NCBI GenBank assembly: GCA_017882285.1
Contig: JADGPS010000001.1
Span: 86,984-150,983, forward strand
Length of the DNA stretch: 64,000 nucleotides
Source: Paludibacter sp.
GTDB lineage: Bacteria > Bacteroidota > Bacteroidia > Bacteroidales > Paludibacteraceae
Reading direction: 5' to 3'
Shown here: positions 27,187 through 29,900 of the stretch, in pieces
How positions within the stretch are numbered: the stretch's first letter is position 1
How the letters are laid out: the number at the start of each line of letters is the position of its first letter
Translations under genes and position numbers: made by a program
Notes under the pieces: model-generated
What the model was told of the DNA's origin: nothing
Seen by the model: the letters and a program-made list of their open reading frames with translations, nothing else
Databases searched by the model: none

Positions 27187-27531
27187 ATGGAAAACGAAAA
27201 CAAAATTCTCGACAAGTTATTGAAAGTGCCAATTTATACGGTTGGAGCTTTTACAATTGATGTTCAGAAACGACTTCTTACCATTAAGGGAGATTCGAAA
27301 AAACTGACTAACAAAGAATTACATTTGCTAATTATGTTATCTGCTAATACAAATGTTTTGTTAGAACGTAAATATTTGTTGGAATCAATCTGGGAAGAAA
27401 ACAACTATTTCAATGGCAGAAGCATGGATGTTTATCTTTGCAAACTGCGCAAATTATTAAGTGCTGATCCAAGACTTAATATTGTTAATATTCATGGCAA
27501 AGGATATAAATTAATTGCTCCAGCAAATTAA
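27187..27531 (+). CDS. Stand-alone OmpR/PhoB-type winged-helix DNA-binding protein
   Basis: 114 residues, essentially only the C-terminal effector domain of an OmpR-class response regulator: beta strands YTVGAFTIDVQKRLLTIKG, helices KKLTNKELHLLIMLSANTN, recognition helix region NGRSMDVYLCKLRKLL and the wing VNIHGKGYKLIAP. No receiver domain precedes it, and the 524 bp upstream carries no decayed receiver, so this is a genuine small regulator rather than a recent truncation. No histidine kinase is nearby. Targets are unknown; it is followed by metK, but the two genes are separated by a separate promoter. Confidence 0.82.
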   Translation: MENENKILDKLLKVPIYTVGAFTIDVQKRLLTIKGDSKKLTNKELHLLIMLSANTNVLLERKYLLESIWEENNYFNGRSMDVYLCKLRKLLSADPRLNIVNIHGKGYKLIAPAN

Positions 27532-27668: not shown

Positions 27669-27699
27669 TTTGCTAATCAAAATGGAATCCGTACTTTTG
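27669..27699 (+). promoter_or_regulatory. metK promoter
   Basis: TTTG (27669-27672), exactly 19-bp spacer, TACTTTTG (27692-27699): a consensus Bacteroidota promoter. The predicted transcription start, about 27706, puts the aptamer at the very 5' end of the mRNA. Confidence 0.75.
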
Positions 27700-27710
27700 T
27701 AACATAAAAA

Positions 27711-27763
27711 AATGTGGAGAGATTTGGACTGCTTGCAACCACAGAAAAAAAATGCTAAACCGC
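27711..27763 (+). ncRNA. SAM-II-like riboswitch aptamer in the metK leader
   Basis: The sequence follows the SAM-II order of conserved blocks: P1 strand TGTGG (27713-27717), GATTTGG (27721-27726 region), GCTTGCAA, P1 strand CCACA (27739-27743), A-rich linker, then GCTAAA (27754-27759). GG at 27725-27726 can pair with CC at 27760-27761 where other SAM-II RNAs have CC/GG, which suggests a compensatory change in the pseudoknot. metK makes S-adenosylmethionine, so feedback control fits. The distance to the metK ATG (165 nt) is unusually long for SAM-II. Call rests on pattern recall; a covariance-model score is needed. Confidence 0.72.
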
Positions 27764-27841
27764 AAACCCTTTCTGCCCTTAATAAAGTCCTCTAAAAAAT
27801 ACTTCCCGTTTTTTTGCATAGCAATCAACATTAACTTGTAA
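27752..27841 (+). CDS. Putative 29-codon leader ORF starting inside the riboswitch
   Basis: ATG at 27752 overlaps the conserved GCUAAA strand of the SAM-II-like aptamer (AUGCUAAAC) and opens a 29-codon frame, MLNRKPFLPLIKSSKKYFPF..., ending TAA at 27839-27841. It is basic and then hydrophobic. If real, ligand binding would sequester its start codon, making the riboswitch act on leader translation and only indirectly on metK. It could equally be a chance ORF. Confidence 0.3.
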   Translation: MLNRKPFLPLIKSSKKYFPFFCIAININL

Positions 27842-27927
27842 ATTATTAAATCAATCATTTTGCAATACTATTATTCGTTCGGTATGAACGAAATTGGGAA
27901 TTGTAAATGTTTAAATTGTAAATCAAA

Positions 27928-29208
27928 ATGGGATATTTATTTTCATCCGAATCGGTGTCAGAAGGTCATCCTGACAAAGTAGCCGATCAAATTTCAGATG
28001 CAATTCTGGACAATTTTCTTGCCTTAGACAAAGACTCAAAAGTGGCTTGCGAAACTTTGGTAACTACAGGACAAGTAGTGTTGGCAGGCGAAGTAAAATC
28101 ATCAGCTTATATCGATGTACAATCGGTCACACGTCGCGTGATTAATCGCATTGGTTATACCAAAAGCGAATATATGTTCGACGGGAATGCCTGTGGAATT
28201 TTCTCGGCCTTGCACGAGCAATCCGGTGATATAAACCGTGGTGTAGAACGCGAAGATCCAATGAATCAAGGTGCAGGCGATCAAGGAATGATGTTCGGCT
28301 ATGCTACTAATGAAACCAAAAACCTGATGCCGATTGCTCTCGATTTATCGCATGCATTGGTGGAAGAACTGGCAGCCATTCGTCGCGAAGGGAAAGTAAT
28401 GACTTACCTCCGCCCGGACTCTAAATCGCAGGTAACCATTGAATACGACGACAATAATAAACCGGTAAAAGTAAACACCATCGTTGTGTCAACGCAACAT
28501 GATGATTTTACTAAACCTTCGACTACAAAAACACAGTATGAGGCTGACGAAGAAATGTTGACTATTATTCGCGAAGATGTGAAAAACATTTTGATTCCAC
28601 GTGTAAAAGCATTAGACGTTCAATTTGCCCAATTATTTAAAGGCGATTATGTTTTGCATGTGAACCCAACCGGAAAATTCGTAATCGGCGGACCGCACGG
28701 TGATACCGGTTTAACCGGACGTAAAATTATCGTGGATACTTACGGTGGAAAAGGTGCTCACGGTGGTGGTGCTTTCTCGGGAAAAGATCCTTCAAAAGTT
28801 GATCGTTCGGCAGCGTATGCAGCTCGCCATATTGCAAAAAACATTGTAGCAGCAGGTCTTGCGAACGAAGTTCTGGTGCAGGTGGCTTATGCTATCGGTG
28901 TGGCTGAACCTATGAACTTATATGTAAACACGTACCAAACTGCTAAAGTGACACTTAGCGACGCTGAAATTGCCACAAAAATCGGAAAACTATTTGATAT
29001 GCGTCCAAAAGCCATTGAAGAAAGGCTAAAACTGCGTAATCCGATTTACGAAGAAACTGCTTCTTACGGTCACATGGGACGCACACCAATTGAAGTTACA
29101 AAAACTTTTAAAGATGGCAACGGAGCTGAAATCAGCCGTACCGTGGAACTCTTTACCTGGGAAAAAACTGATAAAGTAGTCGAAATCAAAACCGAATTTG
29201 GAATGTAG
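27928..29208 (+). CDS. metK: S-adenosylmethionine synthetase
   Basis: Makes S-adenosylmethionine from methionine and ATP; cytoplasmic tetramer. The 426 residues show the N-terminal [20 protein letters not shown] (about 6-25), signature [12 protein letters not shown] (about 112-123) and [19 protein letters not shown] (about 272-290). It is somewhat longer than E. coli's 383, with insertions around 155-215, as usual in Bacteroidota. Single-gene unit: own promoter and SAM-II-like leader upstream, hairpin terminator downstream. Confidence 0.97.
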
Positions 29209-29369: not shown

Positions 29370-29900
29370 TTACTCTTTAATTTCTTCTCTTACTTCTTTC
29401 TCAAGAAGAAGTTCTTTGTCGTTTGTGATTGTATTTAATACATTTAGAACTTTACGATCAACATCTTCTGATATTTCCTTTATGCGATCTAACGTTCGCA
29501 CTTTTATTAAAGCTGCAACTTCCGAAAAATCAGTATCAATCCATAATTTTTCAGTTGATGCAAAACGGTGTATGTAGGATTTATTTGAAATTCTTGATTC
29601 AATGGTGTCATTTTGCTTCTTTATGTAAGTGTTAATATAGCTCATTACACTTATCGTACTGTAATCTTTTCTAAGTGACTTAATAGAATCATAGTAATTC
29701 GTAAAAACTTCATGAACCACCTTTTCAATTACATTTTTCTTGTCAACATTTTTTATACTGTCTGTTTTTGAAATTTCAGTTTTAGTTATTGATTGAATGA
29801 TATAAATTTTATCATAACATAAATTTTTACTTGAAATACAGGTTGCATAAGTTGCTGAAAACAAGAGAATACTAACGATTAATATGATTATCTTTTTCAC
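29370..29900 (-). CDS. Hypothetical secreted protein
   Basis: Not recognised. It has 176 residues with a clear N-terminal signal peptide (MKKIIILIVSILLFSATYA), so probably periplasmic or secreted. The mature part is polar and mostly helical, rich in Lys, Ile, Ser and Thr, with two cysteines near the new N-terminus (CISSKNLC), which could form a disulfide. The last 40 residues (about 135-176) are a charged helix. No membrane segment or known motif follows. It stands alone on the minus strand between plus-strand metK and marR, in an AT-rich island that looks lineage-specific. Confidence 0.6.
   Translation of the reverse strand: MKKIIILIVSILLFSATYATCISSKNLCYDKIYIIQSITKTEISKTDSIKNVDKKNVIEKVVHEVFTNYYDSIKSLRKDYSTISVMSYINTYIKKQNDTIESRISNKSYIHRFASTEKLWIDTDFSEVAALIKVRTLDRIKEISEDVDRKVLNVLNTITNDKELLLEKEVREEIKE

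Follow-up and report, generated by a model that had tools for sequence, protein, structure and literature searches.

SAM-II passes for the textbook case of a riboswitch that acts by direct occlusion, and metK is a usual target of SAM riboswitches. In the window, the whole stretch of 64,000 nucleotides of Paludibacter sp. DNA that was analysed here, an aptamer of this class stands 168 nt ahead of metK, and the question is how it could control a start codon at such a distance. Our answer, from a comparison of about 160 relatives, is that the spacer between aptamer and gene probably carries two covarying elements, one complementary to the aptamer and one complementary to the metK start, which together would form an RNA platform for remote control of translation. 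To our knowledge, the Bacteroidota lack strong Shine-Dalgarno signals and few of their riboswitch outputs have been worked out.

The Aptamer and Its Promoter

The segment 27708-27768 on the forward strand matched the Rfam covariance model RF01726 (SAM-II long loop) with 61.1 bits (E = 2.6e-9), well above the curated cut-off of 44 bits, and this was the sole Rfam match in the 64 kb window. With RF00521 (SAM_alpha) the same aptamer scored 19.7 bits, below the cut-off of 36. P1 is formed by 27714-27717 with 27739-27742, L1 contains GGACUGC (27726-27732) and UUGCAA (27733-27738), and the aptamer GCUAAA lies at 27754-27759. In the homologous loci, P1 was paired in 100% of cases and covaried, as GTGG/CCAC in 124, GAGG/CCTC in 42, and ATGG/CCAT in one. 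The core pairing of UUGCA with UGCUAAA was kept in 100% of 48 Bacteroidales-type sequences, with one double change. Of the P2b pairs, those of the consensus register formed in 59% of cells, and two of the three showed double changes; by eye, a shifted UGC/GCA register of P2b is possible in the window. The original prediction had also seen a covarying reversal of a GG/CC pseudoknot pair. We rejected this, since of the 32 same-genus loci whose L1 has GGA the window alone showed CC at that place, the others having TC, TT, CT, AG, or TG. In the flavobacterial-type loci L107, L109, L116, L144, and L167-L173, an extra hairpin, variable in length, separates P1 from the AUGCUAAA strand within L3 and makes up the "long loop".

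The aptamer is preceded by a Bacteroidota promoter on the forward strand (27669-27699), TTTG (27669-27672)-N19-TACTTTTG (27692-27699). The comparison of homologous leaders confirmed this promoter and the position of the aptamer close to the transcription start, as had been predicted, because the TAnnTTTG box was kept in 114 of 121 leaders, against an expectation of about 5 from shuffling. With the transcription start placed 5 nt past the -7 box, the transcript of the window would begin near 27704, ten bases 5' of P1, with the predicted 5' end AUAAAAAAAU (27704-27713, forward strand); in relatives the predicted start was mostly 6-14 nt ahead of P1. The ORF from 27928 to 29208 on the forward strand encodes an S-adenosylmethionine synthetase of 426 aa, in which Pfam found all three S-AdoMet_synt domains, N, M, and C (PF00438, PF02772, and PF02773), so that metK was correctly named as the target gene. 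By covariance score, pairing, and context, the RNA is classed as a SAM-II riboswitch at the 5' end of the metK mRNA, as originally proposed, and it presumably binds SAM.

On its upstream side the metK promoter is adjoined by an ORF of 114 aa (27187-27531; Trans_reg_C), whose product is a stand-alone OmpR-type DNA-binding domain and lacks a receiver. A predicted 176-aa protein with no Pfam match is encoded on the reverse strand at 29370-29900, facing metK.

Distribution and Distance to metK

The Bacteroidota SAM-II aptamer itself is already known. It was listed in 2005 for B. thetaiotaomicron (PMC1273637), and SAM-II long loops were described from Bacteroidetes and marine sequences by Weinberg in 2010 (PMC2864571), with aptamer sequence, fold, and taxon as in the window. 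Of 119 relatives, most of them from the same genus, family, and order, 92 carried the RF01726 element, and so did 70 of 393 genomes sampled from the phylum. Wherever metK was within reach, it lay 3' of the aptamer at nearly every locus. In 166 loci, GCTAAA and the metK ATG were a median of 90 nt apart (5th-95th percentile 57-179 nt), and in 15 of these loci at least 165 nt lay between them. The 168 nt of the window, which had been regarded as unusual, is therefore at the long end of the normal range of this clade.

At this distance direct occlusion of the ribosome-binding site of metK cannot apply, and here the earlier hunch was right. The direct-occlusion SAM-II riboswitches (metX, PDB 2QWY; PMC10907184) share the aptamer and presumably the OFF logic, whereas the gene start is far away in the window and in most relatives. 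The compact, classical layout was found at metK in two relatives, L053 and L091, where the aptamer is 2-5 nt from the start; L091 has UUG in place of the aptamer AUG. At the other extreme, metK lies 437 and 471 nt from the aptamer in L037 and L086, far beyond the usual range. One genome bin has a second SAM-II aptamer (L079), and the 2 kb that follow it contain no metK.

A Probable Anti-Aptamer in the Spacer

The spacer contains the bases AGUCC (27786-27790, forward strand), which are complementary to GGACU of L1 (27726-27730). In the same-genus alignment, the spacer reads AGTCC where L1 reads GGACT, and CGGTTC where L1 reads GAACCG or GAGCCG. The compensated pairs of L1 and spacer included GGACU/AGUCC, GAACCG/CGGUUC, GAGUUG/CAACUC, and GGUUGA/UCAACC. 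As MAFFT split GGTTC and AGTCC into different columns, this covariation was measured by swap tests. The duplex of L1 with its own spacer had a mean energy of -10.0 kcal/mol, compared to -7.9 kcal/mol with swapped L1 (n = 89, p = 5e-13, a value that is optimistic, like all covariation p values given here, because relatives are not independent). When each L1 type was counted once, the own spacer was better in 26 of 29 types by a mean of -2.1 kcal/mol (sign test, p = 7.6e-6). The controls of the L1-type test were near null, with -0.6 for two metK-internal regions, -0.25 for the upstream region, and 0.0 for the reversed spacer. The effect was replicated in a separate collection of 47 named genomes that had no spacer in common with the first set, where 18 of 21 L1 types agreed (p = 7e-4).

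Folding pointed the same way. The aptamer with its spacer was much more stable than with a shuffled spacer, the mean z being -2.3 for the Bacteroidales type and -4.2 for the flavobacterial type, while the spacer alone was weakly structured or unstructured. These results indicate that the spacer holds an anti-aptamer that covaries with L1.

A Predicted Sequestor of the metK Start

Just 3' of the anti-aptamer there is a pyrimidine-rich element, CUUCCCGUUUUUUU (27802-27815, forward strand). It has two predicted pairing partners, the transcript's 5' end (27706-27719) and the metK initiation region UUGUAAAUCAAAAUGGGAUAU (27916-27936, forward strand). The latter duplex was predicted at -15.2 kcal/mol, and we refer to the element as the sequestor. 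In many loci it reads UUCCCGU, which is complementary to AUGGGAU of metK, and where the metK start is altered the sequestor has often changed to match, as in L066 (AAGCCAUAAU with AUUAUGGCUU) and L007 (GGUUCA with UGAACU).

The pairing of each spacer with its own metK start was stronger than with swapped partners (162 loci, p = 1.3e-9, relatedness ignored). For the first set of Bacteroidales-type loci the same swap test gave p = 4e-5 and for the independent set p = 0.0036, and it was weaker in the flavobacterial subset of the pooled loci alone (p = 0.018). When start hexamers were taken as types, p was 0.02 for 11 types. The effect was missing in 33 metK leaders without SAM-II (p = 0.61), and eight windows deeper in metK showed none after correction. 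Comparison of the loci thus indicates a spacer element that is complementary to the metK start and covaries with it.

Proposed Switch

We propose, with a probability of about 0.58, that the SAM-II riboswitch shuts off metK translation from a distance through this sequestor/anti-sequestor platform. In the presence of SAM, the aptamer would retain its own 5' half (P1 and L1), and the sequestor at 27802-27815, prevented from pairing with the 5' end of the transcript, would be available to the metK start region at 27916-27936 and could pair with it, which is the OFF state. In the absence of SAM, the spacer would pair back onto the 5' half of the aptamer during transcription, in such a way that AGUCC meets GGACU of L1 while the sequestor meets AAAAAAAUGUGGAG (27706-27719) at the 5' end. 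AGUCC and CUUCCCGU would thus be paired with the 5' end of the transcript before metK is made, and with the sequestor captured by the nascent 5' end the metK start would stay open, which is the ON state.

The proposal was compared with folds of the two states, all of which are secondary-structure predictions. The plain accessibility of the metK start changed little between the states, and the pairing of the start with the spacer was used as the measure in its place. The predicted start:spacer pairing with the aptamer held and in the free RNA was 0.49 and 0.29, respectively, for the Bacteroidales type, and 0.36 and 0.05 for the flavobacterial type. Holding the aptamer raised the predicted sequestration of the start by more than 0.2 in 54 loci and lowered it in 3, which is the direction that would be expected of feedback repression of metK by SAM. 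In our model the OFF direction and the translational output are inferred.

The full-length RNA of the window was predicted to be sequestered at equilibrium with or without the aptamer (0.96 vs. 0.94) and was not bistable, and its switch would therefore have to be kinetic. The nascent folds are consistent with such control. In the free RNA of the window, from about 108 nt to metK +4, the pairing of AAAAAAAUGUGGAG with UUCCCGUUUUUUU reached 0.91 and that of AGUCC with L1 reached 0.92. The start-paired form became the more stable one only past metK +16, by about 4.6 kcal/mol. Across loci, the sequestor was held by the aptamer strand in the nascent folds of 73 of the 79 loci that have a sequestor.

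The 5' end of the transcript together with the 5' strand of P1, AAAAAAAUGUGGAG, is similar to the metK start AAAAUGGGAU, and the nascent folds predict that it can pair with the sequestor. Tentatively, the 5' end of Bacteroidota SAM-II leaders may thus mimic the gene start, so that one sequestor would choose between the two during transcription and SAM would exert kinetic control over a start codon about 100 nt away; the covariation of the 5' end with the sequestor was not significant by itself (p = 0.08). If true, this mimicry would be a third output mode of SAM-II besides direct occlusion and termination. A perfect 7-bp hairpin, TTCGTTC-GGTAT-GAACGAA (27874-27892, forward strand), which was also found in the minimum free energy fold, sits between the sequestor and metK and would bring them closer. 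It had no recognisable counterpart among the aligned same-genus leaders and is possibly only a spacer-shortening stem.

As a device, the platform resembles the translational riboswitches of other aptamer classes in which the ligand breaks an antisequestor and frees a sequestor (PMC2258182), except that the antisequestor of the window would consist of the transcript's 5' end and the 5' half of the aptamer. In its main text, the 2010 paper on RF01726 (PMC2864571) presents no platform, in contrast to the covarying anti-aptamer and metK-start sequestor found here. Nor was an anti-aptamer combined with a start sequestor described in the open-access papers searched. An RNA-only device that would let SAM-II cover a distant metK start appears to be new to the literature. 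As most metK copies of SAM-II in Bacteroidales and Flavobacteriales stand 57-179 nt from the gene, it offers a concrete and testable mode of action for them.

Alternative Outputs

The same anti-aptamer helix could serve a transcriptional output. With SAM, the spacer would be single-stranded, C-rich, and G-poor and would load Rho, while without SAM the helix would lock the spacer and metK would be transcribed. From +6 to +60 the spacer has a C content of 0.25-0.30 and a G content of 0.08-0.11, compared with 0.17 and 0.18 upstream, and it has little structure of its own. This composition makes Rho-dependent termination with SAM a serious alternative. Since the spacer complements the aptamer's purine-rich 5' half, part of its excess of C over G is imposed on it, and Rho attenuation does not predict the covariation of the sequestor with the metK start, so that we consider it unlikely on the whole.

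Still more doubtful is a ribosome standby, in which 30S subunits bound for the remote start of metK would be recruited at the aptamer's A-rich AUG region, which SAM would hide. The A-run and the AUG are conserved, and there is a precedent, proposed for the metA leader of Sinorhizobium meliloti, where a SAM-II riboswitch with the Shine-Dalgarno sequence inside controls a start 74 nt away (Scheuer 2022, PMC9373788). As is predicted for the window, SAM-II acts in that leader on a start codon tens of nucleotides away; its hidden element lies in the aptamer, whereas in the window the element predicted to cover the start codon itself is a distinct one, located in the spacer. The highly variable spacer length (57-179 nt at the 5th and 95th percentiles) argues against standby, which explains neither the L1:spacer nor the spacer:start covariation.

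The alphaproteobacterial RF00521 riboswitches (Corbino 2005, PMC1273637; Barrick and Breaker 2007, PMC2258182) are like the window in having P1 with a predicted pseudoknot P2 and a transcription start a few nucleotides ahead of P1, and they may also sit well upstream of the gene. Most of these leaders carry intrinsic terminators, and attenuation by a terminator and antiterminator is reported for many SAM-II leaders. A terminator-like hairpin was found in 10 of 89 Bacteroidales-type leaders, against 1.9 expected, but in only 1 of 26 flavobacterial-type leaders. The search for a hairpin with a U-tract between aptamer and metK in the window detected none, and we rejected an intrinsic terminator there; as the output of this platform, attenuation of this type seems scarcely probable.

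The AUG Inside the Aptamer

The original prediction took the ATG at 27752-27754, within AATGCTAAAC, as the start of a 29-codon ORF (27752-27841, forward strand) that SAM would hide, with control of metK through coupling, polarity, or attenuation. ATG and ORF are present as described, but the significance given to the ORF did not survive the alignment of leaders. Frame 0 had no advantage in length over frames +1 and +2 (p = 0.91 and 0.42) in 90 Bacteroidales-type loci, 9 of which had ORFs of at most four codons, and the length in relatives ranged from 3 to 70 codons. Substitutions at codon positions 1, 2, and 3 were 128:117:122 in 33 close pairs, and 32 of 36 indels were not multiples of three. 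Some homologous leaders keep the aptamer without the ATG or the ORF, which by the refuting condition set in the original prediction counts against the ORF, and the comparison shows no coding selection. Given also the exceptions to the AUG, the ORF was rejected as a coding region or a regulated start. Translation from this AUG may occur, and nothing indicates that the ORF is the regulated object.

The AUG precedes CUAAA in 161 of 166 aptamers, the preceding A-run would suit initiation in Bacteroidota, and the consensus of RF00521 has no AUG at all. A structural reading is sufficient. Its A is part of the A-rich L3. Its U and G, together with the C that comes next, form pairs with A, C, and G of UUGCA, in the window U27753, G27754, and C27755 with G27735, C27736, and A27737 (P2a, or "P1a"), a UGC/GCA pairing predicted in nearly all loci. 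A Watson-Crick pair between these positions had been predicted through mutual information (PMC2258182). The conservation of the AUG is thus explained, as far as sequence can tell, by the service of its bases to the aptamer in L3 and in pairing with L1, and an AUG conserved within an aptamer is not necessarily a start codon. Since the analogous AUG1 of S. meliloti, beside the aptamer, is not used as the working start in its native context (PMC9373788), and the coding signature is absent, control through the leader ORF is very improbable. Five loci lack the AUG (L091, L092, L093, L121, and L158). In L092, with the loop TTGTAA and the tail ATACTAAA, the C-G pair has become U-A by compensatory change on both sides (TTGTAACC/ATACTAAA), by which the pairing was kept and the AUG was lost.
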